Source: Dictyoglomus sp. NZ13-RE01 (GTDB lineage: Bacteria > Dictyoglomota > Dictyoglomia > Dictyoglomales > Dictyoglomaceae). From it: a stretch of DNA of 64,000 nt. Every line of letters begins with the position of its first letter. Positions within the stretch are counted from its first letter, which is position 1. Under the pieces are notes generated by a model. The model was not told where the DNA came from. It saw nothing but the letters and a program-made list of their open reading frames with translations, and did not search any database. Positions 33,572-59,092 of this stretch are shown here, in pieces. The stretch lies in contig NIRF01000008.1 of assembly GCA_002878375.1 (NCBI GenBank), positions 25,272 through 89,271 on the forward strand, read 5' to 3'. The translations under genes and the position numbers were made by a program.

Positions 33572-33591
33572 TCTTCTCACCCTCCAAATTT

Positions 33592-36318: not shown

Positions 36319-39300
36319 GCTCTCCATACCTCTTCCGATTTATTTTTCCATTCTTCCAAGGGTATAATATATCTTACCACACCAATTTCTTCCAGTGGTA
36401 AAAGATTTATGGCAGGATTTTTAATGATTGTTAAAACAGGATTTGTTTTTATATTAGATACTATATATAAATAATATTGGTCTTTGAAATTTTTTGCTTT
36501 AAACCATTCGTTTTGAGTTAGGGCTACGTCTCCCTCTTCAGCTCTTGCCTTAACCTCTATGTATCTTACTTCTCCTGTCTTTTCATCCTTTGATCTTATA
36601 TCATATCCAAGATTTTCCTTTGACACATCTTCAGGAGTTCTACCACATTCCCTTTCATATCTCATAGCTATCTCCATCCCAATTTTTTCAATCTCTTCAT
36701 TTTCTACCATTGCATCTTTCATTGGCACCACCTTTATCACTGTTAAAAGCTCCGGTTTTGTCATAGATAAATTTTGTTCCTGTTCTATCTCTTTTTCTAA
36801 ATCCTCTCTTGCATTTTTATATTTTTCCAAAAGTTCTTTTTTATTTCTTATAGGTAAATCTACTTTTTCTCCCTTATCAAGTCTATCGTAAAGTTCTGCT
36901 AATTCTTCGTTTAATTTATCAATAAAATAATTAAGTGATTTTAAACCATATTTCCTTTTTATTTCTGCCTGTCTTTTTCTCTCCTGAGCTATCTCCTCTT
37001 TATATTTTTCTACTGCATAAATAGCACGACCTATTAATTTATTCTCCTCTACTATATATTCAGAAGGGTTTGATTTTTCAGGTGACAAATCCCAAATAAT
37101 AGTAGGATTTATTTCTCTTACACTATTTCCATCATCATAAAGGGCAAATATTTTTCTTCCTGCAATCTCCCCTTTTGCATCTTTTATCTCTCCTATGTAA
37201 AACCAGATGTATCCATTTAGTTTTCCAGATGGATCTTTGAATACTGCTCCTCTTTTAGCCTCCAATTGGTAATTCCTAATAATCCATTCTAATAAAGCTT
37301 CTAATAATGGATGTCCAAAGGAGATAAACTCTGCATCTTGATTTCTAAAGGCTATATCTTTATCAAAGGTTGCTTTTGGATAGCTTCTACTTAATTTACC
37401 ATACATTTTTTGAAAATTAATATCGTCATTAAAATTTATAAGAGGGGTTGAAAATACATCTTCAATGGCTATAAACTCTTTCTTAGTATCTTTAATTTTC
37501 CCTTTAATATCCGAATTTGTGTATGCCTTTCTAAAGAAAGCTTCAACATATTCAGGTACAAGTTTATTTTCTTTTGCCTTTTCATTCATTTCTTTTATCC
37601 TTGTGTAATCAATAAATCTTGTGGCAAGGCTTTCTCCCAAGATCTCTTTTATTTCAGAGATATATTTCTCATCAGGTTTTATATCTAATTCCTTTAAGAT
37701 TTCATCCATACTTTTAGCATTCATCACTGCATCAACTATAAGTTGGTATAGATTTTTATCTTTAAATATCTCACCAATTACATCAAAGATCCTGTCACTT
37801 CCAAGCTTTTCTCTTATCTCATCTAATTTATCAAGTAATTTAGAAAGCACCTTTCCTTCTCTTGTATCATCCGCCACAAGATTAAAAATATAAACATCTT
37901 TTTGCTGACCATATCTATGGATTCTTCCCATTCTCTGTTCAAGCCTATTTGGGGTCCAAGGTATATCATAATTTATCATTATATGGCAAAATTGCAGGTT
38001 TATTCCTTCTCCTGCAGCTTCTGTGGCTACCATTATATCAGTATAGTCTTTGAAATTCTTCTCCTCTTCAATTCTTTTTTCCATATTCATTCCGCCATGT
38101 ATGAAGTTTACCTTATATCCCCAGCTCTTTATTTTTTCCACTAAATATTCAAGAGTATCCTTAAATTCAGTAAATATTAATATTCTGGGTTTTCCATCCA
38201 TCTCCTTAATTTTCTTAAAGCCTTCTTCAATTGCCTTTTTAAGCTCTTTAATTTTTACCTCCTCTTCAGATTGCAATACCTCTTTTGCTTTATTAATAAG
38301 TCTTTCTAAGGTCTTTATTTCCTTTTTTAGCTCATCCATATTTTTTGCCAATGTGATTTGTTCCCACTCTTCTTCCTTTTTCATTCTTTCTTCCTCAGCC
38401 ATATCTTCATATTCTTCTATATCAATTTCTTCCTCTGGTACTCTTTTTAGCTCTTCCTCTTTTGAGATCTTTTCCAATCTGTTTTTTCTTCTTTCCAAGG
38501 ATCTTAAAAGGGCATAGACACTTGATGCCATTCTTCTTTGAAGAAGTACAAGGGCAAAGGCAACATTCCTTCTTCTATCCATTTCAATTGCTTTATTGTA
38601 TTGTTCTACTACATATTTTGTGACCTCGTTATAAAGTTCCTTTTCTTTATCTGAAAGCTGAAATTTTATCGTTTTTGGAAATCTTCTTGTGAATATGGGT
38701 TTTCCCTCAAAATTCTTAAGATCCTCTTTTAGTCTTCTAATAAAAAGGGGATTATCCTTATTCTTTAAGGATTCTTCTATCATCTCTTTTGTTGCAAAAA
38801 ATCCTGGCATGAGAAGATCTAAAAAGAGTCTAAAATTTTCTGGATCTCCTTTATGGGGTGTAGCAGTTAAAAAGAGAAGATGATCTGAATTTGCGGATAA
38901 GACCTCTCCTAATTTGTAACGTTGAGTTTTTTGGGTTTTTTCTCCATATTTATATGCTGAGAGTTTATGGGCTTCATCCACGATAACCAAATCCCAATGG
39001 ACTATGCTTAATGAGGTGAGTATATCTTTTTGTTTTGCAAAATCCATAGATGCTATTATTTGTTTTTCTCTTTCCCATGGATTTTCACCGAACAAATTAT
39101 TAAAACTATTTCTGTCTACAACTACAAAGGTTTCATTAAATTTTTCCTTAAGCTCTCTTTTCCATTGATCTACTAAATGACCAGGCACAATTAAAAGAAT
39201 TCTATTAATAAGTCCTCTTAACTTTAGCTCTTTTAGAACAAGTCCTGCCATTATGGTTTTTCCTGCACCAGGGTCATCCGCAATTAAAAATCTGATACGA

Positions 39301-39641
39301 GGTTGTTTCAAAACATAGCCATAGACTGCCTCAATCTGGAAGGGTAGGGGTTCAATTTTGGATACATTCATAGCAAGAAGAGGATCAAAAAGAGATGCAT
39401 ATTTAAAGCGCGTTGCTTCTATCAAAAGGAAAGTTTTCTCAGGGTCCGAAGAAAAATCCAATGCGGTCTCAATTACTTTTATCCTATTTAAGTCCTCTTT
39501 TGGGATTAATCCCTCTACGAATTGTTTAGAATTTACTCCAATACCTACAATACGTATATAATCGTTTATAAATTCAACTTTTTCTAATTTCACAGGTTCA
39601 TTCCAAAAATCTCCTATAATCGTTTTACCCTCTTCAATCAC
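36315..39641 (-). CDS. SNF2-family helicase fused to a DUF3883 nuclease-like domain
   Basis: 1108 residues. Helicase motifs: [20 protein letters not shown] (I), [10 protein letters not shown] (II), [10 protein letters not shown] (III), then in the second lobe [30 protein letters not shown] (V) and [18 protein letters not shown] (VI). A coiled coil of Glu/Lys lies around 380-480. The last 120 residues are DUF3883: [21 protein letters not shown] gives Asp and Glu-x-Lys, a PD-(D/E)xK-like site. It may translocate along DNA and cut. GTG start with GGGGAGGTG upstream. First gene of the helicase-methyltransferase-ATPase operon. Confidence 0.9.
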
Positions 39642-44083: not shown

Positions 44084-44935
44084 ATGAGTGAATTATTTAA
44101 GCAATATGGGGGTAAAACTCAAGAAAGCTCCAGTGCTGAAGAGGTACTGATATGTCCTCATTGTGGAGCAGAAAACGAAGAAGGAGCGAAATATTGTGCA
44201 GAATGTGGTAAACCTCTCAATCCAGTCAAACAATGTCCCCATTGTAAATCAACAGTACCAGCAGATGCAGACATTTGTGAAGTATGTGGGGCATGGCTTT
44301 TGGAGGGGCGATGCAAATTTTGCTATGCACCTTTAGAGGAGGGAGCCAAATTCTGTTCTGTTTGTGGGAATCCAGTAGAAGGAATAATATGTCCCCAATG
44401 TGGGAATCTAAGCTATTTTGATTTTTGTAAACATTGTGGAATTCCATTAACGAAGCAAGCACATGAAGCGATTGAGCAATTAAGGAATTCAGAGGAATTC
44501 CAAGCCATATTAAGGGGCATATCAGAGCAAACCATAGATGAGACGGACGATGAGAAAGAACTAAAGAAGATGAAAGAGTACAAAGAGAGGTTACAGAAAA
44601 GCGATTCTACTCAATTACAAAAATCCTCACAGATATTTAATTCAGGGACAGACGAACTAATTCAAGGAGTGGATAAAGCGGAGAGATCTCAAGAGGAGCT
44701 AAATAAACTTTTTGAGAAATTACAGCAGAAAGAATTCAAGAACAATCAAGAGGCGAGGAGATTTTTTGGGGCATTAAAAGTTCTGTTACCCACAATAAAG
44801 CGAAACCCAATAGGGTGGCGTTGTAATGCGTATGGGGTAGTACATCCAGAAGGGCCCCAAGGTTGTTCAGCTCCTGGGCATGGAGGGGAGTGGTTATTTG
44901 AGACTATAACTACAATTGAGGAAGTGGAAATATGA
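44084..44935 (+). CDS. Multi-zinc-ribbon protein of unknown function
   Basis: 283 residues. The first 125 hold a string of zinc ribbons: CPHCGAENEEGAKYCAECG, CPHCKSTVPADADICEVCG, CKFCYAPLEEGAKFCSVCG and CPQCGNLSYFDFCKHCG, i.e. four C-x2-C...C-x2-C units. A charged, coiled-coil-like middle (about 130-235) follows. The last 50 residues have a separate Cys/His cluster (GWRCNAYGVVHP, GCSAPGHGGEW). The stop overlaps the kinase start (ATGA), so the two are co-translated. The ribbons could bind DNA, RNA or protein; a sensor or scaffold for the kinase is a reasonable guess. Confidence 0.8.
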   Translation: MSELFKQYGGKTQESSSAEEVLICPHCGAENEEGAKYCAECGKPLNPVKQCPHCKSTVPADADICEVCGAWLLEGRCKFCYAPLEEGAKFCSVCGNPVEGIICPQCGNLSYFDFCKHCGIPLTKQAHEAIEQLRNSEEFQAILRGISEQTIDETDDEKELKKMKEYKERLQKSDSTQLQKSSQIFNSGTDELIQGVDKAERSQEELNKLFEKLQQKEFKNNQEARRFFGALKVLLPTIKRNPIGWRCNAYGVVHPEGPQGCSAPGHGGEWLFETITTIEEVEI

Positions 44936-47085
44936 GTAAAGAGGATATGAATAAAGAAGAGACGATACGTTCAGTTAATGGTGAGATAATATCCTCAGGG
45001 GTAGATCGAACAGAGAGGGACAGTGGAGGGATAATATCATCAGGGGTAGGACAAAATCTAGCTCCTACAATCTCATTAAATGAAATAGTTATTAATGGGG
45101 AGCGATACATAATCACACAGCAATTAGCCACTTCTGGGGAAGCAGAAGTTTTTCTAGCGAAGAGAGGGAATGATGAATATGTAATAAAGCTATACTATCC
45201 AAGTTTTATGCCGAAGAAAGAGATAATAGAGAAGCTAAAAGGGCTAACACATCCAGATATTATATCTATTATTGATTATGGGTGGTATCAAAACAGATTT
45301 GTTGAGGTAATGGAGTATGCGAGGGGTGGTTCCTTATACGAAAAGATTCCGATAAAAGACCCAAAATTTTTAAAGCAAATAGTGAAAGAAGTAGTAAATG
45401 CGCTTGAATTTTGTCACAGTAGAGGGATAATTCATCGAGACTTAAAACCACAAAACATATTTTTCCGAGATTCAAGTCAGAGGGATATAGTGATAGGAGA
45501 TTTTGGAATATCAAGTGTTTTGGATGAAGGTTATTCGAAGCGCTTAACAGGGCAAGCGAGGACACTAACCTATGCAGCGCCTGAGCTTTTTCAGAGCATA
45601 AGAGGAAAGACAGTAATAGACAAAGAGGTAGACTATTACTCCTTAGGGATTACACTAATTCACTTATGGAGTGGGGAAGAACCATTTAAAGACTTAGGTG
45701 AATATGGAGTTATGAGGATGAAGATGGAGGGGCGAGTAGAGATACCTGAAGACATGCCGAATGAATTCAAGACCTTGGTAAAGGGATTATTAGTAGTAAA
45801 TCCAGCGAAGAGGTGGGGGTATAAAGAAGTTCAGAAGTGGTTAAACGGGGAAGTTGTACCGGTGGAGTATGAAGTTATAAAAGAGTATCCACCATTCATA
45901 TTTGGGAAAGTAGGGAATGAGGAGTTAGTAGCGACTGATCCAGAGAGCTTAGCGGATTTAATGGAGAAGTATGAAGAGCTTGGGAAGCGACATTTATATA
46001 GGAGAGCAATATCTGAGTGGTTAAAGAACAAGAACCAATATTTATACACGGCGATTGAGAGTATAATAGAGGAGGAATATCCGAGGGATCAGAGGGCTGG
46101 ATTAATAAAAGCGATCTATGTTTTAGACTCAGGGAGAGGATTTAAGGGGGTAGATGGAAATAGGTATAGTACACCTGAAGAGATAGCGAAATGTTTAGAG
46201 GAGAATTTTTCGTATTATGAAGAGGAGTTAAAGAAAGAGACAGCGGAGTTATACTTATACTTGGAGGCGAGGGGTTATAAAGGAGAGGCGGACAAATTTA
46301 GGAAGCTTTTCAAGAATGCGCCTTCTGGAGCTGCTTTAAATACTCTTATTCTTTCTCTTGAGGGTGAAGATTTGCTAATAATAGATATTAATGACCCTAA
46401 AACTTGGTATAAAAAGGGGATTGAATTTTACGATCTTGGTAAATATGAAAGAGCTATAAAATGTTTTGATGAAGCAATAAAATTGAGAAATGGAGACTTC
46501 CCAGATGCTTGGTATAACAAAGGTCTTGCATTTTATGCTCTTGGCAGGTTTGACGAGGCGATAAAATGTTATGATGAAGTTATAAAATTGAGAAAAGGAG
46601 ATTTTCCAGAGTTTTGGTATAACAAAGGTAATGCACTTTCAAAGCTTGGCAAGTTTAAAGAGGCGATAGAGTGTTTTGATAAAGCGATAAAGTTGGGAAA
46701 AAGAGATGATCCAGATGCTTGGTATAACAAAGGGAATGCATTTTATGCTCTTGGCAGGTTTGACGAGGCGATAAAATGTTATGATGAAGCAATAAAATTG
46801 AGAAAAGGAGACTTCCCAGATGCTTGGAATAACAAAGGTAATGCATTTTATGCTCTTGGCAAGTTTGGAGAGGCGATCAAGTGTTTTGATGAAGTGATAA
46901 AATTGAGAAAAGGAAATGATCCAGAAGCTTGGTTTAACAAAGGAAATGCACTTTATTATCTTTTCAGGTTTGAAGAAGCGATCAAATGTTATGATGAGGC
47001 TATAAGATTGAGAAATGGGGACTATTCAGAAGCTTTGGAGGCAAAAAATCGTGCGCTTTCAATACTCAATAAGTGGAAAAAGTAA
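44932..47085 (+). CDS. Ser/Thr protein kinase with C-terminal TPR array
   Basis: 717 residues. After a 55-residue N-terminal segment with an internal repeat (IISSGV twice), the kinase domain runs to about 310: a glycine loop with changed spacing (LATSGEAEVFLAK), lysine in YVIKLYY (Lys86), catalytic HRDLKPQN (168-175), metal site GDFG (189-192) and AAPEL. All catalytic residues are present. No membrane helix or PASTA domain is seen, so it is cytoplasmic. A middle region of unknown fold (310-485) precedes six 35-residue TPRs (487-696). It uses GCG and GAG codons more than the BREX genes facing it. Confidence 0.92.
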   Translation: MSKEDMNKEETIRSVNGEIISSGVDRTERDSGGIISSGVGQNLAPTISLNEIVINGERYIITQQLATSGEAEVFLAKRGNDEYVIKLYYPSFMPKKEIIEKLKGLTHPDIISIIDYGWYQNRFVEVMEYARGGSLYEKIPIKDPKFLKQIVKEVVNALEFCHSRGIIHRDLKPQNIFFRDSSQRDIVIGDFGISSVLDEGYSKRLTGQARTLTYAAPELFQSIRGKTVIDKEVDYYSLGITLIHLWSGEEPFKDLGEYGVMRMKMEGRVEIPEDMPNEFKTLVKGLLVVNPAKRWGYKEVQKWLNGEVVPVEYEVIKEYPPFIFGKVGNEELVATDPESLADLMEKYEELGKRHLYRRAISEWLKNKNQYLYTAIESIIEEEYPRDQRAGLIKAIYVLDSGRGFKGVDGNRYSTPEEIAKCLEENFSYYEEELKKETAELYLYLEARGYKGEADKFRKLFKNAPSGAALNTLILSLEGEDLLIIDINDPKTWYKKGIEFYDLGKYERAIKCFDEAIKLRNGDFPDAWYNKGLAFYALGRFDEAIKCYDEVIKLRKGDFPEFWYNKGNALSKLGKFKEAIECFDKAIKLGKRDDPDAWYNKGNAFYALGRFDEAIKCYDEAIKLRKGDFPDAWNNKGNAFYALGKFGEAIKCFDEVIKLRKGNDPEAWFNKGNALYYLFRFEEAIKCYDEAIRLRNGDYSEALEAKNRALSILNKWKK
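46390..47019 (+). repeat. Six tandem 105-bp TPR-coding repeats
   Basis: Six units of 105 bases with the pattern DAWYNKGNAFYALGRFDEAI. Repeats 2 and 4 are almost identical over long stretches, indicating recent amplification or gene conversion. The same unit occurs again, isolated, near 47540. Confidence 0.9.
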
Positions 47086-47536: not shown

Positions 47537-47781
47537 CAGGCAAGGTACTTTATGCTCTTGGCAGGTTTGAAGAGGCGATAGAATGTTATGATAAAGCAAT
47601 AGAACTGAGTAAGGGAAAATTTTACTCAGCTTTTTCTGGTAAAGCCTTTGCACTTTGCAAACTTGGTAAGTTTGATGAGGTTTCAGAATTTTTAAATGAG
47701 GCTTCAAAATTCTTAACTAAATGGACTATAGATGTCATAAAGCTTTTAATTTTAGTATTTCATAATAGAGAAATCCTCTAA
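47537..47781 (+). pseudogene. Orphan TPR fragment, duplicate of the kinase 3' end
   Basis: Begins abruptly with KVLYALGRFEEAIECYDKAIELSKG, one TPR like those of the kinase, followed by a half-matching second unit (SAFSGKAFALCKLGKFDE) and a short tail. It lacks a kinase domain and ribosome site. Its stop overlaps the end of the sigma gene, as the kinase stop does with the sigma remnant. Best read as a truncated copy of a kinase-TPR gene. Confidence 0.7.
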
Positions 47782-48701
47782 CATTTCCTAAAGTCTATAA
47801 TTTTATTTCTCGATTTTGGATGTCGAAGTCTTCTTAGGGCTTTTTCTTCTATTTGTCTTATTCTTTCTCTTGTTAGATTAAATAATTTTCCTACGTCTTC
47901 TAAGGTTCTTTCTATTCCATCCTCTAAGCCATATCTTAGTTTTAAGATTTCCTTTTGTCTATCAGAAAGGGTATCAATAAGTTCTCCTAAGATTTCTTTT
48001 AAATTTTGTTTTTCTAAAAATTCCCAAATATCATCTGTGTCATCACATAAAATATCTTGAAGGCACGAATCATCATCAATATCTTTCCTAATACATAGCG
48101 AGTTTAAAGTTTCGTATTCTTCTTCAGAAAATTCGCATACGGGAACATCATAAGGAATAAATTTAAAATTATAGGTTTTCTGCTTTTCTAAATAATGAAC
48201 GGGAATTCTTATGAGATGTGAATTTTCATCTATTGCTCGTGAAATGCATTGTTTTATCCACCATACTGCGTAGGTTGAAAATTTATTTCCTTTTTTCCAA
48301 TCGAATCTTTCAACAGCTTTTATAAGTCCAATGTACCCTTCCTGAATTAGATCTTCAAAATCTAAGCCTCTTCCCACATATTTCTTTGCTACGGAGTGGA
48401 CTAACTTTAAATTGCACAGTATAACTTCTTCTCTGGCTTTCTTATCTCCCTGTTCTATCCTTTGAAATAGTTCCTTTTCTTTTTTTGGATTTAATACCTT
48501 ATATTTAGATATCTCCTTTAGATGAATGTCTAAAATATCTATATATTCTTTGTAATCTTTTTTTATGCTCGGCTTAGATTTTGGGGCTGGTTCCTCTGTT
48601 TCTTCTTTTTCTGATAGATCTATTCCCTTTTCTTTTAGAAATTCATCCAATTCTCTTATTAATTCTTCCTCTTCAAGCTTTCTTATTAAATCCTCAAACA
48701 T
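47778..48701 (-). CDS. RpoD-like sigma-70 factor at the end of the BREX operon
   Basis: 307 residues. After an acidic N-terminal 50 residues come regions 1.2-2.4: NLKLVHSVAKKYVGRGLDFE, LIQEGYIGLIKAVERFDW, FSTYAVWWIKQCISRAI and LIRIPVHY. Region 3 is short and unusual (YDVPVCEFSEEEYETLNSLC). Region 4 is close to housekeeping sigma: LSDRQKEILKLRYGLEDG, RTLEDVGKLFNLTRERIRQI and ALRRLRHPKSR. It should recognise near-standard promoters. Region 1.1 is absent, so it is an alternative (group 2) factor. It starts seven bases after the brxL stop with no clear ribosome site, hence is probably coupled to brxL. Confidence 0.9.
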   Translation of the reverse strand: MFEDLIRKLEEEELIRELDEFLKEKGIDLSEKEETEEPAPKSKPSIKKDYKEYIDILDIHLKEISKYKVLNPKKEKELFQRIEQGDKKAREEVILCNLKLVHSVAKKYVGRGLDFEDLIQEGYIGLIKAVERFDWKKGNKFSTYAVWWIKQCISRAIDENSHLIRIPVHYLEKQKTYNFKFIPYDVPVCEFSEEEYETLNSLCIRKDIDDDSCLQDILCDDTDDIWEFLEKQNLKEILGELIDTLSDRQKEILKLRYGLEDGIERTLEDVGKLFNLTRERIRQIEEKALRRLRHPKSRNKIIDFRKC

Positions 48702-48708
48702 CTTAGTT

Positions 48709-50157
48709 TTAAAATTTTTTAATCTTTATCTCTGGAAGTTTATCTTTGTACTCTGGGTCAATAAGATGGATTTGCTTCCTTATTATTCCTCTTTTTTCAA
48801 TGGCAGGATTTAAGCAATATATTTCAAATTCTTCCTTATTTATTTCTGATACATCATTTACATGAGGAAAGAGAAGCTTTAGATAAGCAGTGGCTAACCT
48901 TTTTATAGCGTTTGTATCTCTTGTGTCGGCTTTTGGTTCAACTTCTACCAATTCATTCACAAACAAAGAATATTCGGAATGATTTCTTAAGGAATGAAGA
49001 ACCTCTGAAAAGTATTCTACATTTAAGGCATAACCTGTAACCTTCATGCTTTCATTGATTCTTGGCAATTTCCATCCCTCATTAAATCCATGAAACCTAT
49101 CTAAAAGGGCAGATTCTTTGAAAAACTCAGGTAGTTCACTAAAATAAAATTGATTGATAGGTCTAAAGTCTTCTGTAAGAGGTATATTCCCAAGAAGCAT
49201 TAATCCAGCCTCTGATGTGCCTAAGATGTTTCCTATTTTAAATGTTCCTGACTCAAGATAACTTTTTAAAGCCCCACTTAATTCTTCCTCGTTGGAGAAT
49301 TTTATTGTCTGTATCTCATCTAATGCAACAAAGTCATACCTTGTTATATAGCCAAAGGTATTTCTTGCCATATCATAAAACATTTTTGCTCTTGAAACAT
49401 TGCCACCACTAATACACCATCCATATTTACTTAGATTATTAAATATGTATGATTTTCCAGTACTTTTTGGTGAGAGTTCTATCATGTTTAGTCTTGGCTC
49501 AACAAAGATTAAGAGACGTGATAAAAAAGAAAGTTTTTGCTCTAAGCTATCAAATCCTGCTGGATTATACTCCATTGACTTAATAAGTAGATCAATCCAC
49601 TCCTCGAGGGTAAATTCTTTTCTTCCCTCTCTAAAATACTCAAAATCTATATCATAGGGTTTAAATGGTTTATAATCTACTATCGCAATATATCCCAAGT
49701 TAAATTCTGAGGCTTCTGGTGGTACATATAATAGAGAGAAAACTCCCCAAACTTCTCCACCAACAAGATTTTTATGCTTCTCGATTACAAATTTTTCAAC
49801 AATACCCTCATTAAGTGAAATGCCAAGATCAGGAATCGAAAACCTTATAAGGTTTTTTTTGACATCTGGTTCTATAAGTACTCTTGCTAATATCTTTTTT
49901 TCAGTTTTTGTAGATATTAACTCTCCTTTTAGTTTTTTAGCATCTTCTTTTTGAGGGATAAATTTTTCTAAAAAGCTTAGAAGTCCAGTTTTATCTATTG
50001 TTCCATCCTCATCAGTGAATTTTTGTACAAGCCAGTCCTTAATGAAAGATGGTATATTTTTTCCACTAAAAACACTATATATTTCTCTGCTCTTGTAGAC
50101 AGATTCATTTGGAAAAACCCTTCTTATTTTTAAGTCTAAACTTTCTTTTTCTTTCAT
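48709..50157 (-). CDS. brxL: BREX Lon-like protein BrxL
   Basis: 482 residues, the short BrxL form. The AAA site is in IELSPKSTGKSYIFNNLSKYG, followed by CISGGNVSRAKMFYDM and DFVALDEIQTIKF (Walker B), and the GTSEAGLMLLGNIPL stretch; LLDRFHGFNEGWKLPRI is conserved in the family. The far C-terminal region (LNPAIEKRGIIRKQI) keeps part of the Lon-like tail, but a clear Ser-Lys protease pair was not identified. BrxL is a DNA-binding ring protein needed for phage exclusion. ATGA overlap with pglZ. Confidence 0.9.
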   Translation of the reverse strand: MKEKESLDLKIRRVFPNESVYKSREIYSVFSGKNIPSFIKDWLVQKFTDEDGTIDKTGLLSFLEKFIPQKEDAKKLKGELISTKTEKKILARVLIEPDVKKNLIRFSIPDLGISLNEGIVEKFVIEKHKNLVGGEVWGVFSLLYVPPEASEFNLGYIAIVDYKPFKPYDIDFEYFREGRKEFTLEEWIDLLIKSMEYNPAGFDSLEQKLSFLSRLLIFVEPRLNMIELSPKSTGKSYIFNNLSKYGWCISGGNVSRAKMFYDMARNTFGYITRYDFVALDEIQTIKFSNEEELSGALKSYLESGTFKIGNILGTSEAGLMLLGNIPLTEDFRPINQFYFSELPEFFKESALLDRFHGFNEGWKLPRINESMKVTGYALNVEYFSEVLHSLRNHSEYSLFVNELVEVEPKADTRDTNAIKRLATAYLKLLFPHVNDVSEINKEEFEIYCLNPAIEKRGIIRKQIHLIDPEYKDKLPEIKIKKF

Positions 50158-52481
50158 AAAATATCCCTTTCTTTCATACCTCCAATAATATTTATTTCAA
50201 ATGGCTTCTCAAACTCCCCAATCTTTATTTTTATTGAAAGATTGCCTACCTTTATATTTTCTAATTTTATGCTATAAATATCGCTTTCCTTATTGTAGTT
50301 CATTTCGTATAATCTTCCTGAGTATTCTATTTTTACTTTTACTTTAGGTTTTGGTTTGATTTTTACTTCTAATATTGGATTTCTGATACTTATATCTGTT
50401 TTTAGTATATGAACTTCAAATTTTTCCCTTTTGACTAATTTTTTAGAGGCATGTATAAGAGGGACTAATATTTCCTCTGGTGTAGCTCCTCCATGTACTT
50501 CTCTTTTTGGTACATCACTTAAAGAAGCATATTTTAATGTAATAATATATTTATGTTCTTTTCCTTCCTTATCTTTGGAGGTATGCAAAAAGAAGTCTTC
50601 ATCTTCAATAAAATTTTTTTCTGATGTAATCTCCATATATCTTCCTTCATGCTCTGCGTCCTCAAAATTATATCTTTTAAATTTATTGAATTGATAGCTT
50701 GCAAAGGGTGTGAAACCATGATCAGAAAATATGATGAGGTCATCACCAAAGCTTGATACTTTTTTAACTATGTTTTTTATTATTTCTATTTCTTCTATTA
50801 TATTTTCTGGATACTTGTATATATTTTGATCATGAAGATATTTATCCAGATCATTTATTGATTCATCTGCATCTAACTTGTTAAACTTTGTTATAGAGGG
50901 TAGTTCCGAGGTTCCTATATATACTTGAGTGGTATATCCCTCTTCTTTTAACAGCCTTAAAAATAGGTTTAGAAACTCTAATCCTAATCCATCAATAAAA
51001 ATCTTTTTGCTTTCTTGATTTTTCTCTATTTCTTTAAAATAAATATTCTCTAATTTATCAAAGGAGAAATACCAGTTGTAAAAAGACTTGCTGTTATTAT
51101 TCTTTTCATTCAATATGGAGATGTGCCTATCTGAAATAGAATTTCTAAGCCTTGAAGCTCTATATTCATTGAAATATTCAATAATCCAATTATTTTGCTC
51201 ATTGATATTTTCAAAATGTAATTCTTCTAAATAATAGCTTAGTTCTGGATAGATATTTGATAAATCATAAATATGGTCTAAATTTTTTATTATCCACTTC
51301 TTCTCAAATTTAGATATTCCAACTAAATATTTATATGTTACATCGATAGGTAATTTTTCTATTTCTTCTTCCAATCTCTCATCAATGAATTTTGGCACTT
51401 CCTCATTAATTTTACTGTAATAATTTCTCAAAAGGCTTCTTCTTTCATTTAAAAGTTTCGAAGTAGGGGTATTTATTGAAAATATCTTCAACCAGTAATC
51501 TGTAATTAAGGAATTCTTAGAAAACTCTTTAATATCTTTTAGGACGAAGGATGTATATGTATCGTTAAATTCATAGTTATTTAGAATATACCATTTCAGA
51601 ATCCAACGAGAAAATTCATCTCCATGATGCCATAAGTATAATGTATCTTCTAATTTGAGAGTTTTAATATTTAATACGACTTCTGCAAGCTCATTAAAAT
51701 TTGATTTTTTTGTACTAAACTTGTCAAATAACTGCTTCCAAAAACGGTCCTCTGTCTCTTCATACTCAATGGGAACTTTAATATTCCATACCTTTTCAAT
51801 ATATTCCTTAATATTTTCTATCTTTATGAAGTCGAAGGTTTCATCTGGAACTACCTTGTCAGCAAAATAATAAATAATATCTGAGCATGAAATTAGTGTA
51901 CTTGGTATTTCGCGCTTTTTCCATAAATTCAAATAGTCTTTTGTATTTCTTATATTAGCATCTTCTAAATTGAAATTTACAAGATATATTTTAACCTTAT
52001 CCTTCTCCGGGTCATTTATTATCCATAAAGGGTCCCACTCAAATCTTCTATGATATTTGTTCAAAAAGGCATTTTCTATTCTGTTTCTCATACCTATTAA
52101 TGGAATATATATTCTTCTATTTCTTTCAGGGCTTCCCTCAATCTCTAATAGGAAATTAATAAAAGAGTAAAGTTCATTATCACTAAAAAATCGCAAAAAC
52201 TCAGAAATACCAAGAATTATAAAATCATTTTGTGTATCTAAATTTTTTATTAGGTTGTAAATGTTTGATTGGGTTAGCCATCTATCCTCATTTTCATCGA
52301 GGAGAATATCACCTATGCTTATTACATTAGCTTTGTTGTTAAGTTTATTTATTAACTCATGTAGTAATTTATAATTACTCAGCATTATTAGTCTGGTAGG
52401 AAAGCGAATACTATATGTATTTCTTGAAACTCTATCCTTATTTAAATATTCTATTAATTCATCGAGATTTCCAAATATCAT
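50154..52481 (-). CDS. pglZ: BREX alkaline-phosphatase-like protein PglZ
   Basis: 775 residues. The N-terminal 450 residues are AT-rich helical sequence. The PglZ core starts with KKIFIDGLGLEFLNLFLRL (metal Asp), continues with DLIIFSDHGFTPFAS (Asp-His) and closes with VPKREVHGGATPEEILVPLI, all hallmarks of the domain. A beta-sandwich-like tail (about 670-770) follows. PglZ is present in every BREX type. Two bases separate it from brxC. Confidence 0.92.
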   Translation of the reverse strand: MIFGNLDELIEYLNKDRVSRNTYSIRFPTRLIMLSNYKLLHELINKLNNKANVISIGDILLDENEDRWLTQSNIYNLIKNLDTQNDFIILGISEFLRFFSDNELYSFINFLLEIEGSPERNRRIYIPLIGMRNRIENAFLNKYHRRFEWDPLWIINDPEKDKVKIYLVNFNLEDANIRNTKDYLNLWKKREIPSTLISCSDIIYYFADKVVPDETFDFIKIENIKEYIEKVWNIKVPIEYEETEDRFWKQLFDKFSTKKSNFNELAEVVLNIKTLKLEDTLYLWHHGDEFSRWILKWYILNNYEFNDTYTSFVLKDIKEFSKNSLITDYWLKIFSINTPTSKLLNERRSLLRNYYSKINEEVPKFIDERLEEEIEKLPIDVTYKYLVGISKFEKKWIIKNLDHIYDLSNIYPELSYYLEELHFENINEQNNWIIEYFNEYRASRLRNSISDRHISILNEKNNNSKSFYNWYFSFDKLENIYFKEIEKNQESKKIFIDGLGLEFLNLFLRLLKEEGYTTQVYIGTSELPSITKFNKLDADESINDLDKYLHDQNIYKYPENIIEEIEIIKNIVKKVSSFGDDLIIFSDHGFTPFASYQFNKFKRYNFEDAEHEGRYMEITSEKNFIEDEDFFLHTSKDKEGKEHKYIITLKYASLSDVPKREVHGGATPEEILVPLIHASKKLVKREKFEVHILKTDISIRNPILEVKIKPKPKVKVKIEYSGRLYEMNYNKESDIYSIKLENIKVGNLSIKIKIGEFEKPFEINIIGGMKERDIL

Positions 52482-52483
52482 TC

Positions 52484-55400
52484 TTAATCTAACATCCTTT
52501 CAATGAATTCACAGATAGAAGGATTTTCATCTATTAGTTTTATAAGAATTTCCTTTAGATCTTTATTGGTTGATCTTATCTTATTTTTTATATTTTCTTT
52601 CCTTTTTGCGTTTACCATATCTTTATATTTTTTACTATTTTTGTGGATATAATTTTCTACAGTCTGCTTATTCAAGTGTAGCTCCTCTATTTTCATATTT
52701 AAACGAATATCTTCGATTATATTTTCAAATATATTTTCTTCTAAGTCTTCATCTCTTATATCAAGTGTCTTTACAATGAATTCTCTGTAATTGCTTCTTG
52801 CTCTATTTTCATCAAATATCATTTCTATGCCATCCTTATTTCTCTCAAATAAATTTAGCATCTCTTGATAAAAATCTATGTTTTCATCCATATAATTGCT
52901 ATTTAGATAAGTGATTAGTTTGTAGATTATTTCATTAATGTCTTGATTATTTTTATGACTAAAACTCCAGAATGGGTAATTAAGTTTTATTATTGAATTT
53001 ATTATCTTGTTCTTGAGATCTTTAAAATTATTTACATGTTCAATATTAAAAATCTTTTCAATAAATTTTGAGTACTTATATTTGATTATGCAATCTCTTA
53101 AGTCTTTTTCATCCCAATAATACGGTTCTTTCTCAATATTTTTTTGAATAAATAATAACAAGGCATCAATATTATCTATTATGTCACCAAAATCTAAGCT
53201 TTTAAGAAAGCTTTCCATTACTATTTTAGTATATTCTTTTTTTAGATTGCTTTTTAATAATGTTCCCTGTGATTTTAATTCATCTTTTAATTTTTCAATA
53301 ATCTCTTCCGATAGTTTGGCTTCAGTGTCTAAGAATTCTTTTAAATCAATAATAATTTTCTTAATTTGATCATTAAATATATAACTGAATAACCATAAGG
53401 GAGATTTTATGTCATTATTTATTTTTTCTTTAATCTTATTTTTTACTGATTTAAGATCTGATACATTTTCTAATTCAAAAATATTAGCTAATATATTTAC
53501 TAACTCTGTTTCAAGTAACTCCTTTTTCCTCAAATTTTTCCAATCGGAAATTTTTACTAATAATTTGTTTTCATCAGAGAATGCAAGTTCTTCCTGAAAG
53601 TTCTTATTTAGAAAATTTATTAATTGGTCCCATTCTTCTTTATTTATTAAGCCAACTTTTTCTTGTAGCCAATTTTTAAATCCTTCTTCTAATTTATCGG
53701 GTTTCAATATTAATTTTAAATCTGTCTTATAATTTTTGAAAAAGGCATTAATTTTTTTTATATCTTCCGGTTTAAGCTCATCCTTAATTGATATCAAAAG
53801 TTGAATTAATTTTAGAAAAAAGTCTTTAGTTTCATCATTTATACTACTTTGAATATATTTTATGCTCCATAGTGGAAATTTTCCTTTGTTGATAATCCAT
53901 TCTTTTACTCCATATATTGTCTGCTTTAAACCTTCACTGGTTTGAATTTCAAAGAGTTCTCTTAATATATCTTCTAATTCTTTTTCTTCTGGAATACCAA
54001 GTCTTATCTTCAAGTTTTCTTCATCTTTTCCCTCGATTATGTATTTCATTAGAGAAATTACTTTTTCTTTTAATTTTATAGCATCAATTATTTTTTCTTT
54101 GCTCGGTTCATACAACTTGTTTACAAAAGGTCTTAATGTGAAGGAAATTAATGCGGACCCTATTATACTGGGATAAATACCAAATGGAGGTTTGAAAATA
54201 AAATCAAGCGCTTCTGATAAATAGAAAGTTCTTCCTTCCTTTTCCTTTATCTTTCTTTCCACTTCTCTGAAGAGTCTAACAGTAGGATGATTTGGATCTA
54301 TAGTTTCTTTTATTAGTAAACCATCATTGACAATATATTCTCCGTTATTTGTTTTTAAGAGAGTAAGAACAGATTTATAAAGCTGGCTTTTTGCTCTATC
54401 TTCTAAATCATTACGATCAGATGATAGTAAGAATATTTCTACTGTTTTTTCTGAAATTTGTTTTTTCCATATATTTTCATTAGAGAGAAGCCCTTCAATA
54501 TTTTCAGGACCAAATGTAAATATTTCTTTTGATATTTCTCTGTTTATAACATCTTTAAAGTTATTAAAATTTGCAATTCTTTGTTTAGTTAAATAATATA
54601 TTTTTACATTTCCTGTTTCAATTCTTTCAAGCCATTTATTAACAATACTTTCTATATATTTATAATTTCTTTCTTTCTCTTCACTAAAGCCATGTCTATC
54701 TGCAACTTTATATCTTGCAAAGTATTCAATCAAATCATTGAAATATTTTTCTCCAAGGGCTTCATGACAGATAATGAAAACTTTATTTTTAAACATTTCT
54801 TCGTTTTTCGTAATTATGCTATTTATAACATTTTCTGCTGTTTTAATTTCATCTTCAAATTTTGGTAAGAAAATTACGAGATGGATAGAGAATTGATAGT
54901 GAAATGCATTTTTAATTTTTTTCTCTATCTCATATGGATTTAATTTCGGATCTAATAGTAATAACTCTACAGGGCGTAAAATACCACTTTCAAATAGGTC
55001 TTTAAATTTATCTTCATAATTTATAGTAAGGCGTGAAAAAACATTTAATATATTATATTCTATTTCCTTTTTGAAATTTTCTTTTTCCATTATAACTTCA
55101 TTTTGTGGTAATGGTGTTACAGAGATAAGGAAAAGATTATCAGGGGTTTTTGGAATATAACCTTGTTTATTGATATAATTTAAAACATCTTTTAAATATC
55201 TTTCATAAGGTGTTCCTATAAACATTCTCTTTATATTTTCTTCAGATGGAGTATAAAGATCATTTCTTGCACTACTACTAACGGATAGAAAAGAGTTTAG
55301 AATATTCAATAAAAGAATTCCTTTATATATAGATTCATAGGCTTTTCCAAGCTTTTTTAGATCATTTAAATATCTTTCTTTTTCTAAAACATTTTTAAGT

Positions 55401-56728
55401 TTATTTTCTGGATTTCTTATAAATTCTTCGTGAAAATAGTCCCATATGTAATCAGCTGTTAAAAAATAGTGTGTACCTAAGGAATCTTTTAAAGGATATT
55501 CTTTAATAAACTTAACAAATCCTTTTTCTTCATCGTTAAAAAAACTAAATATACTTCTTTGCGAAGAACCAATATATTCTGCAAGTTTGAATGTAATATA
55601 AGCAGTATATGGATGTATAGGAAAAATATTCTTTATAGATTCCTTTTGTTTATATATTTCTGAGGTTTTATTGTCTGAGAGTTCGGAAATTAGATTATTT
55701 ATATTATCACCACTATATACCTCGTCTCTTAGTTCCTTCCATTTTAGAAAATCTTTTTTATTTATAATTTTTGACATGATACGATATGTTGTAATTTCTT
55801 CCATTTTATATTCATGATATTTAAATCTTCCTAATATTTTTTCAAAATCTTCATTTGAGTATTGAGATTGGGATGGGCTTCTATGGCTTACTATAAAGAG
55901 ATACACATTACTATGGGGGGTTTTCTCCGCTATATTTTGAAAAATACTAAGTAACACATTGCTATTAGGAAGGTCAAAAATTGATGTAAATTCATCCCAA
56001 TATATGCACATTCCTGAAATTGTTTCATCGTATTTTCTAACTTCATTTATAACATCTTCAAGCCAATTTTCTATAGAGGTTAGAGAGACTAAATATTTAA
56101 AATTTTTTTCAAAGGCTTGTAAAACATCAATATTTTCTGATTTTAATTCTTTTAATAATTCTTCTTTATTCTTAACTAAAATTTTTAAGTCATGATGGAT
56201 ATTTATAAACTCGTTCCAATTATAAAGTGGGTCATTCTCGATTGCGTCTATGTATTTATCAAATTCACTTTTTATATTTATTTCTATATTCTCCTTTATA
56301 AGAGCTTTTTTAACAGCTGTTTCTATAGTCAATGATAAACTTTTTACATCAAAAACAGTAGATATATTCTTCAACGTCACTGGAAATATGCGATTTTTCA
56401 ATCTGTAATTTTTTAATCTCTCTCTTATCTTAGAATCATCAATATTATTTACAAAGTCCTCAATTTCTTCGTAAGGGTCCCAAAGAAGATGCTTTATCAC
56501 TCCAGTAGCATGACTTTTACCTGTTCCATATCTTCCTTGAACAAATATAGATTTTTTCTCTGCTGGATTTTGAGACTCTAAGGAATCAAGAAACTTCTCT
56601 AAAAGAATTTTAAAGTCATCTGTGGGTATAAATTGTTTCCAGTAATTTTTAGCTTCATTTTCAATATCGTAAACAGGATAAAATTCTTCAAATACATCTA
56701 AATAATCTATATACTTTTCTTCTATCAT
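52484..56728 (-). CDS. brxC: BREX P-loop ATPase BrxC/PglY
   Basis: 1414 residues, the typical giant size. Walker A in VQGRYGTGKSHATGVIKHLL (about 63-82), Walker-B-like GMCIYWDEFTSIFDL near 240. The remaining 1100 residues are largely helical and very rich in Ile, Lys, Asn and Glu. BrxC is the large ATPase core of BREX complexes. The stop and start codons of neighbours abut (brxP end at 56729). Confidence 0.92.
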   Translation of the reverse strand: MIEEKYIDYLDVFEEFYPVYDIENEAKNYWKQFIPTDDFKILLEKFLDSLESQNPAEKKSIFVQGRYGTGKSHATGVIKHLLWDPYEEIEDFVNNIDDSKIRERLKNYRLKNRIFPVTLKNISTVFDVKSLSLTIETAVKKALIKENIEINIKSEFDKYIDAIENDPLYNWNEFINIHHDLKILVKNKEELLKELKSENIDVLQAFEKNFKYLVSLTSIENWLEDVINEVRKYDETISGMCIYWDEFTSIFDLPNSNVLLSIFQNIAEKTPHSNVYLFIVSHRSPSQSQYSNEDFEKILGRFKYHEYKMEEITTYRIMSKIINKKDFLKWKELRDEVYSGDNINNLISELSDNKTSEIYKQKESIKNIFPIHPYTAYITFKLAEYIGSSQRSIFSFFNDEEKGFVKFIKEYPLKDSLGTHYFLTADYIWDYFHEEFIRNPENKLKNVLEKERYLNDLKKLGKAYESIYKGILLLNILNSFLSVSSSARNDLYTPSEENIKRMFIGTPYERYLKDVLNYINKQGYIPKTPDNLFLISVTPLPQNEVIMEKENFKKEIEYNILNVFSRLTINYEDKFKDLFESGILRPVELLLLDPKLNPYEIEKKIKNAFHYQFSIHLVIFLPKFEDEIKTAENVINSIITKNEEMFKNKVFIICHEALGEKYFNDLIEYFARYKVADRHGFSEEKERNYKYIESIVNKWLERIETGNVKIYYLTKQRIANFNNFKDVINREISKEIFTFGPENIEGLLSNENIWKKQISEKTVEIFLLSSDRNDLEDRAKSQLYKSVLTLLKTNNGEYIVNDGLLIKETIDPNHPTVRLFREVERKIKEKEGRTFYLSEALDFIFKPPFGIYPSIIGSALISFTLRPFVNKLYEPSKEKIIDAIKLKEKVISLMKYIIEGKDEENLKIRLGIPEEKELEDILRELFEIQTSEGLKQTIYGVKEWIINKGKFPLWSIKYIQSSINDETKDFFLKLIQLLISIKDELKPEDIKKINAFFKNYKTDLKLILKPDKLEEGFKNWLQEKVGLINKEEWDQLINFLNKNFQEELAFSDENKLLVKISDWKNLRKKELLETELVNILANIFELENVSDLKSVKNKIKEKINNDIKSPLWLFSYIFNDQIKKIIIDLKEFLDTEAKLSEEIIEKLKDELKSQGTLLKSNLKKEYTKIVMESFLKSLDFGDIIDNIDALLLFIQKNIEKEPYYWDEKDLRDCIIKYKYSKFIEKIFNIEHVNNFKDLKNKIINSIIKLNYPFWSFSHKNNQDINEIIYKLITYLNSNYMDENIDFYQEMLNLFERNKDGIEMIFDENRARSNYREFIVKTLDIRDEDLEENIFENIIEDIRLNMKIEELHLNKQTVENYIHKNSKKYKDMVNAKRKENIKNKIRSTNKDLKEILIKLIDENPSICEFIERMLD

Positions 56729-59092
56729 CTAATTTTCCCTCCCCATTATATCATTCAATAAGGCAACATAATCTTTTATTTCTTCAGAAAGGCTAATATT
56801 ATCTAAATCTGCAATTATATCAACGTGAATAAGATCTCTATATTTATTATTTAACCAACGTAAATTATTTTCTAAGGCTTCTCGGGAAATTCCAAAAAGC
56901 AAATAGGGACTTCCATCTTTATTGGTATCTTTATAAAGCTCTGATACAGTGAATTTATACCTTTTTTTGAAAATAGCATATCTATATAGGGAATATAAAA
57001 TTGCTATAGGATGAATGTCATCAGTGCCCATTTTTTTTACAATTCTCAATCTTCCATTTTTTTCAATATAGCCTATCTTCAATGTATTACCAAGTGGACT
57101 ACTTTCAAAAGTATTTAATAAGGAAATAATTCCACCATAGGCAGTTTTGAAAGAAATTTCAAAATCTTTCATTACTAACTTTGTTAAACTTTTAGAAGTG
57201 TGACTTGTATACCATGGAATTTTATTTAAATACCATCTAACTACAGGAGAATTATAAAATAGGTTTATCCAGATTATTTGCCAGGATAGTGTTGAGATAA
57301 ATATGGAATGTTTTTTTAGAATATTAGTAAGAGGTGATATTATTTTTTCTTTTCTTTGATGAATTAAGAGTTCTGAATCAATAAGCCAATTTATCATTGC
57401 GGGATATTGTCTATTTCCTAATGTGTTTCGTGTAAACCATTCTTCTGGATTTGCAAAAAAAGATTTTAACCATTCACTCCTCATTCCAAAAGTTAAATAT
57501 CTACCAAAACCTTGAGCTTCACCCATTTTATTACTACTCCTTTCTGAAGAATCTAATGATTTAGCTAATAAACATCCATTAGAAACAAAATTAACACAAT
57601 TTAAGCAGTTTTTACATAAATTAGTATTTATTTTTACATTTGGAAGAACTTTTAATGCCCCTGTTTTACATTCTGCTTCACATGCACCACAATGAATGCA
57701 ATATGCGGTTTTATATGCTATTTTTTTGATTGTATTTATTATATTAACATCATCATTTTCAACAATTATTTCTGTATAATTATCTGATAAATATAGTTTT
57801 ATATCTGTGATAAAATCGTTAAATTTCAATTCTCCTATATAGGTATTTTGATTTTTTCTAATATTGATAATCTTAAAAACTTTTAACCATTCTAATATAT
57901 TTTCTCTCGGATTAAACATGATTATTTTAAAATTTTTATTCTCCTTTATAAATTCGACTCTTATATTATTTTCAACACCATCTCCACCTGCTCTTTTTTT
58001 CCAGTTTCCCGATATAATGTACTTTTTACGTTCTTCTTCATCATGAAGTCCTAAAGAAGTAAGATGGTTGCCTATTATATCTATATATACATTTGCTATA
58101 TCAGGAAATATACTTCTAATTATGTATTCCGACCAAGATGATCCGAAAGGACATATACTACATCCGACTCTATTTAAACCATATCTATATCCTTTATTTA
58201 AGGGTAAAGAACGAGAATATATGTATATGAATGTCTCTGTTAAATTCCAATCTCGAATTACTTCAGCATTTATTTGTGTTAAATGTTTTACTTCTTCTGC
58301 TACTCTGCTATATCCACTTCTTCTTGTGCTTTCTTCAGCTCTTACACCATCAAAAACTAAAATTTTCAAATTCTGTTTTTCTGGATTTAATCTTCTTAAG
58401 AATCTTACTTGGGGAGATGTTTTATATACAGAACAACACCAACGGATTATTCTACTTGGGGGTCCAAATATTTTCCATAAATCATAGGAATGTTGCTCAT
58501 TTCTGACGATGAAGAATTTTAATGTAGGATATATTTTTGAGTAGTATTCTTTTGTTTTCTCAAATATTTCGTAAGTAGGTGGAATTTCCATAGTAGTATC
58601 AGTAAAAATAACCATAAATTCATCAGGAGGGATAGTCCTACTTACAAGATCTAAAACAACTTGAGAATCCTTTCCACCACTATAAGAAACAATAAAATAA
58701 TCTACTTTATCCTTATATTTATTATAAACTTCATTGATGAAATCTATGGCTTCATTTTCTATTGTTTTTAGAGCTTCTTTATTGTTTTCAATCAATAATT
58801 CTAAATTTATTGGTTCAAGTTTTAAATTTTTACCATTTTCAGTAAGTTTTATTTTTGGTTCTTCATATATATTTCCTCCTCTAACTTCAGCTACTAATTC
58901 TCCTTTATAAAAATATCTTCTTCCTATATTCCAAAGAAGTGGTTCTTGGCTCTGGGGATAATCCCAGTATTTATTAAATCCTAAAAGATCTAATTCTTCA
59001 TAGAATACTGGACGGGGAGGAATAATTTCATTTTCTGAGGATGTAACTAATAATACTCCACCTGATTTTTTATCCCACTCTACTTTATACAT
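56729..59092 (-). CDS. brxP: BrxP: PAPS-reductase-like protein with ferredoxin domain
   Basis: 787 residues. The PP-loop VSYSGGKDSQVVLDLV (Ser138-Ser143 core) and ARIIRWCCSVYKTSP-like, GVRAEESTRRSGYSR and GCSICPFGSSW elements mark the adenosine-phosphosulfate reductase/DndC-like family. A two-cluster ferredoxin part (CIHCGACEAEC about 463-473; CKNCLNCVNFVSNGC about 490-504) follows. The last 270 residues are helical and unassigned. This gene defines BREX type 4 and replaces the PglX methyltransferase. By analogy with DndC it may handle sulfur. First gene of the operon; AGAGGT precedes the ATG. Confidence 0.88.
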   Translation of the reverse strand: MYKVEWDKKSGGVLLVTSSENEIIPPRPVFYEELDLLGFNKYWDYPQSQEPLLWNIGRRYFYKGELVAEVRGGNIYEEPKIKLTENGKNLKLEPINLELLIENNKEALKTIENEAIDFINEVYNKYKDKVDYFIVSYSGGKDSQVVLDLVSRTIPPDEFMVIFTDTTMEIPPTYEIFEKTKEYYSKIYPTLKFFIVRNEQHSYDLWKIFGPPSRIIRWCCSVYKTSPQVRFLRRLNPEKQNLKILVFDGVRAEESTRRSGYSRVAEEVKHLTQINAEVIRDWNLTETFIYIYSRSLPLNKGYRYGLNRVGCSICPFGSSWSEYIIRSIFPDIANVYIDIIGNHLTSLGLHDEEERKKYIISGNWKKRAGGDGVENNIRVEFIKENKNFKIIMFNPRENILEWLKVFKIINIRKNQNTYIGELKFNDFITDIKLYLSDNYTEIIVENDDVNIINTIKKIAYKTAYCIHCGACEAECKTGALKVLPNVKINTNLCKNCLNCVNFVSNGCLLAKSLDSSERSSNKMGEAQGFGRYLTFGMRSEWLKSFFANPEEWFTRNTLGNRQYPAMINWLIDSELLIHQRKEKIISPLTNILKKHSIFISTLSWQIIWINLFYNSPVVRWYLNKIPWYTSHTSKSLTKLVMKDFEISFKTAYGGIISLLNTFESSPLGNTLKIGYIEKNGRLRIVKKMGTDDIHPIAILYSLYRYAIFKKRYKFTVSELYKDTNKDGSPYLLFGISREALENNLRWLNNKYRDLIHVDIIADLDNISLSEEIKDYVALLNDIMGREN

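Follow-up and report, generated by a model that had tools for sequence, protein, structure and literature searches.

Bacteriophage exclusion (BREX) systems are among the commonest defence systems, and how they sense phage and how their expression is controlled are still open questions. BREX type 4 consists of brxPCZL and is based on phosphorothioation (PMC11931770, PMC12839542); the type-4 section of a 2026 survey of 457 BREX-4 taxa describes BrxP, DUF4007, BrxC, PglZ and BrxL together with a cysteine desulfurase and a small zinc-finger protein. Full-text searches of that survey turned up neither a sigma factor gene nor Mrr nor Dictyoglomus. A full-text search for Dictyoglomus together with BREX yielded no paper, and none of the papers found describes a BREX sigma factor. 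The only other defence-linked sigma factor found in the literature is MzaA, a different protein, which belongs to the anti-phage MZA operon and is likewise a member of the sigma-70 family (PMC9523054). Here we describe a BREX type 4 operon that ends in its own sigma-70 gene, located in a 64,000-nucleotide stretch of Dictyoglomus sp. NZ13-RE01 (contig NIRF01000008.1, positions 25,272 to 89,271), hereafter the window.

The operon lies on the minus strand. It opens with brxP (56729..59092), whose 787-amino-acid product combines a PAPS-reductase domain, a ferredoxin-like cysteine cluster and a fused DUF4007-type C-terminus (PADLOC model PDLC02510, E 3e-290; PAPS_reduct match; alignment), and continues with brxC (52484..56728), which encodes a long form of the AAA+ ATPase of 1414 amino acids (PADLOC model PDLC02477, E 7e-241). 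These are followed by a pglZ of the BREX-4 type (50154..52481; 775 amino acids; NCBIfam NF033445 BREX_PglZ_4, 544 bits against a cut-off of 140), by a brxL of the short type-4 form with N-terminal and ATPase domains (48709..50157; 482 amino acids; PF13337, PF20442 and TIGR02688, the last at 521 bits against a cut-off of 329, all above cut-off), and by the sigma-70 gene (47778..48701; 307 amino acids). A BrxP with PAPS-reductase and DUF4007 parts, a type-4 PglZ, BrxC and BrxL thus stand in one operon in the standard order of BREX type 4, no PglX methyltransferase is present in it, and the span from brxP to the sigma gene holds no additional gene. By curated models the system is BREX type 4, and the preliminary description of the locus as a type 4 operon bearing a sigma factor is supported. 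It departs from BREX type 4 in its terminal sigma-70 gene and in a BrxC with three C-terminal helical units rather than one; relatives add a protein with an Mrr_N domain. In the related loci L117, L118 and L119, brxP and brxC are separated by a second gene of the DUF4007 type that stands on its own; the window lacks it.

The same description had placed the four BREX genes and the sigma gene next to one another on one strand, and this arrangement is confirmed, with gaps of 0, 2, -4 and 7 bases between successive minus-strand reading frames. It had also proposed that a terminator or separate promoter between brxL and the sigma gene, together with absence of the pairing from other BREX-4 loci, would speak against a functional link. 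The 7-base gap is too small for a terminator, and promoter-like sites across the region are not in excess (73 found against 70.9 expected from shuffles), so that the scan speaks neither for nor against a separate internal promoter; absence of the pairing holds for BREX-4 in general and is contradicted by the relatives of the window genome and by an unrelated genome, G052, described below.

The window sigma factor matches Sigma70_r1_2, Sigma70_r2 and Sigma70_r4 above the Pfam cut-offs, and in having regions 1.2, 2 and 4 with housekeeping recognition residues it resembles group-1/2 sigma-70 factors of the RpoD/RpoS type. Unlike these, it lacks the sigma-3 domain (a gap of ~37 residues) and a full region 1.1, and carries a BREX-specific N-terminus. 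Its RpoD equivalog score of 220 bits, against a cut-off of 354, shows that it is not the primary RpoD, a separate protein of 348 amino acids encoded elsewhere in the genome (G000:C1:342074-343000). It also differs from MzaA, which has ~700 amino acids and other domains: the window protein scores 238.6 against an MzaA equivalog cut-off of 800, and the mzaBCDE partners are all absent from the window operon. Sigma factors with domains 2 and 4 only, such as the extracytoplasmic function sigmas, are functional in general. The -35 recognition helix (TRERIRQIE) is identical in the window sigma and host RpoD, the -10 residues are nearly identical, and the aromatic residues of the -10 region that melt promoters are kept in the window sigma and in that of a relative, G006. 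Judged from these residues, the window sigma most likely forms a holoenzyme that reads housekeeping-type promoters; there is no indication of a dedicated regulon made up of defence or lysogeny genes, as had been suggested. A divergent sigma-70-type gene (G000:C8:24833-25276) ends at the left border of the window.

A scan of ~85,000 species genomes by BrxP alignment yielded 80 BREX-4 loci. brxL is present in 62 of these, and in 52 the sequence continues for 1.2 kb or more past it; the genomes of L101 and L108, in which no BrxL was detected, were left unscored. None of these 52 other loci carries a sigma gene behind brxL, so the pairing is not a property of BREX-4 as such. The earlier statement that no BREX type is known to have a sigma factor as a core part therefore stands for BREX-4 overall, and is qualified by one small clade of which the sigma gene is a feature; the count of sigma genes behind brxL that had been proposed alongside it gives none in general BREX-4 and finds the pairing in relatives of the window genome and in G052. 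Of the seven genomes of the window's family, six have a brxL-linked sigma gene or its remnant, in most cases preceded by an extra gene; the product of this middle gene consists of a coiled-coil-like stretch and then an Mrr_N winged-helix domain (Pfam E 2e-11). In G001, brxL is split across two contigs and is followed by a 203-amino-acid protein and a 332-amino-acid sigma factor, with gaps of 3 and 8 bases. G006 has the same gene order, with an intact sigma gene and one in-frame stop in the middle gene. G004 has a broken brxP and open frames for brxC, pglZ, brxL and the middle gene; a further open frame of 171 amino acids (L123:12407-12922) retains the N-terminal helix of the BREX sigmas, the sigma finger and region 4, with regions 2 and 3 gone. 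G003 and G002 have only fragments of the sigma locus, still adjacent. G005 is uninformative, because it gave no sigma match whatsoever, not even to rpoD. The sigma-3 domain is kept in G001 and G006 (weak Pfam r3 matches) and in the G002 fragment, and the window and G001 sigmas retain 60% identity.

Sigma-bearing BREX-4 is thus a narrow, lineage-specific variant in a small group of heat-loving bacteria, and its conservation is seen across a handful of genomes. The adjacency of brxL and the sigma gene is not due to chance, since it is found again, whole or as a remnant, in relatives of the window genome and in a genome unrelated to it. As to origin, host RpoD was rejected as the direct parent of the family's BREX sigmas, since a sigma tree separates them and places the BREX sigmas in one clade (support 100/99); the tree has long branches, and its join to Coprothermobacter RpoD may reflect long-branch attraction. 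A phage origin is unsupported: the best matches in a phage collection have at most 45% identity, and those ranked highest are short fragments that carry no annotation. No viral contig encodes a relative of the window BrxP, and among plasmids the Mrr_N domain alone finds matches, which are weak.

The unrelated genome, G052, belongs to a different family and shares kinship with the window genome at the domain level only; in the BrxC tree it falls within the window's family. There, brxL is followed by a 210-amino-acid Mrr_N protein and by the first 160 residues of a sigma factor, after which the contig ends. This contig end and the end of a contig carrying dnaG and rpoD are 97% identical over 317 bases, and each shares an overlap of exactly 141 bases with a third contig; the third contig carries genuine rpoD, with neighbours as at the rpoD locus of the related G071. 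A fourth contig end holds a region-4 piece that is 92% identical to rpoD and has a different tail, and from the assembly we infer that it belongs to the same BREX sigma gene, which the assembly has split and whose middle has collapsed with rpoD. As far as it is resolved, the body of the G052 BREX sigma is a near-copy, 92-97% identical, of its own host's rpoD. Its first 45 residues behave differently: their matches to family BREX sigmas are equalled by 0 and 1 of 5000 shuffles, and their match to the genuine RpoD of G052 by 2408 of 5000. The simplest reading of these sequences would be that the operon was transferred to G052 and the sigma body then replaced from the new host's rpoD, with the BREX N-terminus kept; independent capture is a possible alternative.

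The conserved N-terminus carries an acidic helix (motif RKLEEEELIRELDEFLKEKG at residues 7-26 of the window sigma; 48624..48683, minus strand) that is also found in the Mrr_N protein of the relatives, with an approximate consensus of EEEL(F/I)xx(I/L)(D/E)E(F/I)LK in both proteins. In cross-profile tests between sigma and Mrr_N proteins, 0 of 2000 shuffles reached the observed score in six of seven tests and 5 of 2000 did so in the seventh, and the G052 partner was the best cross-match out of 1851 N-termini drawn from all loci. A structure prediction of the window sigma places a helix at residues 3-24; its overall predicted local distance difference test score (pLDDT) is low, 53.5, and it is usable for the N-terminal helix and the sigma-2 and sigma-4 domains only. 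The proteins that follow brxL in Coprothermobacter had seemed by eye to share the helix and were dropped as candidates (308-690 of 2000 shuffles). These are acidic proteins of 179-180 amino acids encoded directly after brxL (L112:21194-21733 and L118:5201-5743), at the position held elsewhere by the Mrr_N and sigma genes.

The long form of BrxC is a further mark of this group. BrxC has 1383-1428 amino acids in the window, G001, G004 (a frame of 1399 amino acids), G052 and two Coprothermobacter species, whereas the remaining full-length loci from the scan have a BrxC of 1118-1210 amino acids. The additional ~260 residues consist of two more copies of a helical unit of ~145 amino acids, of which the short form has one (hhalign, 98.5-98.7%); in the window, the second and third copies occupy BrxC residues ~1070-1357 (52658..53521, minus strand) and are confined to the long-BrxC clade. 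A structure model shows these units as helical (pLDDT 85.6), and the model of the BrxC C-terminus has no match in the PDB (best E 0.77). Because the long form is one clade (Shimodaira-Hasegawa-like approximate likelihood ratio test, 99), its co-occurrence with the sigma gene counts as one evolutionary association and not many. Two further Coprothermobacteraceae genomes have a BrxC that aligns poorly over the extra units: G065 has a BrxC frame of ~1291 amino acids and no sigma gene after brxL, and G063 has a divergent BrxC frame of 1405 amino acids on a contig that stops before brxL. Three features, namely the triplicated BrxC unit, the RpoD chimaera and the helix common to the sigma and Mrr_N proteins, set the sigma gene apart from a chance neighbour; all lie outside the interpretation given in the preliminary description.

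Our favoured explanation, put forward tentatively, is that the window encodes a lineage-specific BREX-4 system whose last gene specifies a sigma-70 factor dedicated to it; this factor would dock on BREX by its helix, be released upon foreign DNA and keep the operon transcribed. The N-terminal helix would dock both the sigma factor and the Mrr_N protein on a BREX component, for which the extra BrxC units are the best candidate site. The sigma body would bind host RNA polymerase, and therefore have to match the host, and would recognise ordinary -35/-10 promoters. The BREX complex could hold the sigma factor and free it upon engaging foreign DNA; once freed, it would sustain transcription of the BREX operon, and perhaps of other defence genes, when the primary RpoD has been put out of action or diverted by a phage. 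A more general form, rather doubtful as yet, is that a defence complex holds a sigma factor and a winged-helix regulator by a common N-terminal helix and so controls or follows host transcription in infection, the body being exchangeable and taken from each new host's RpoD. Such an operon, with its own helix-tagged sigma-70, would link phosphorothioation-type defence directly to host transcription, and the G052 chimaera predicts that the sigma factor must fit host RNA polymerase and the tag must fit BREX.

Several observations weigh against the favoured explanation. In Coprothermobacter the long BrxC occurs with no accompanying sigma gene, and the protein encoded after brxL shows no significant sharing of the helix. 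The ratio of nonsynonymous to synonymous substitution rates between G001 and G006, 0.45 for the sigma gene, a point in favour of the explanation, and 0.63 for the brxL part, is suggestive only, the sigma value being only moderately below 1 and the synonymous distance small. Domain 3 is lost from the window sigma, and regions 2-3 are lost in G004, where brxP is broken. Finally, the N-terminus of the window sigma aligns to the last helix of region 1.1 of Coprothermobacter RpoD (0 of 3000 shuffles), so the helix could bind RNA polymerase rather than BREX. The helix may descend from this part of region 1.1, judging from the alignment; it is not simply region 1.1, because in G052 it stands before a complete region 1.1. 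The same two facts bear on the suggestion that the protein is a plain extra group-2 sigma driving its own operon or a few genes, its helix a region 1.1 leftover without a BREX partner. This would accord with recognition residues the same as those of RpoD and with the resemblance of the window N-terminus to the region 1.1 end of Coprothermobacter RpoD, but a mere leftover explains neither the same helix on the Mrr_N protein nor its retention before a complete region 1.1 in G052, and we regard it as unlikely.

The losses of sigma domains can be read in other ways. The protein might serve as a tether, its helix bound to BREX and its sigma-4 domain to RNA polymerase, so that BREX inspects or attacks transcribed DNA and initiation is not its main role. 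The 171-amino-acid frame of G004, which has the helix, sigma finger and sigma-4 only and cannot work as a normal sigma factor, fits this idea, as do the loss of sigma-3 in the window, the presence of the helix and region 4 in all four aligned proteins, and an Mrr_N protein that carries the same helix on another DNA-binding domain. However, G001 and G006 retain all of sigma-2, -3 and -4, the window and G006 sigmas retain the promoter-melting aromatics, and the truncated G004 sigma may merely be decaying in an operon whose brxP is broken; we consider a tether improbable. In a further reading, the gene would be a captured rpoD copy carried along by the operon as a passenger and decaying, as seen in the loss of domain 3 from the window sigma and of domains 2 and 3 from that of G004, and in the remnants of G003 and G002. 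Decayed forms in three of the seven family genomes are consistent with this, but the sigma gene is broken in operons whose BREX genes are broken and intact alongside intact ones (window, G001), the 60% identity is maintained, and a passenger would not be expected to have its body replaced behind a conserved N-terminus, as in G052; we hold this to be the least probable of the explanations considered.

Convergent with the sigma gene, on the plus strand at 44084-47085, lie genes for a double zinc-ribbon protein and then a Ser/Thr kinase with TPR repeats; the PADLOC matches look like generic kinase similarity. Further along the minus strand, at 31034-39641, PADLOC identifies a complete Hma defence cassette, comprising the HmaA helicase with a NO VEIN C-terminal domain (36315-39641), the HmaB DNA methylase (33592-36327) and the HmaC ATPase (31034-33580).
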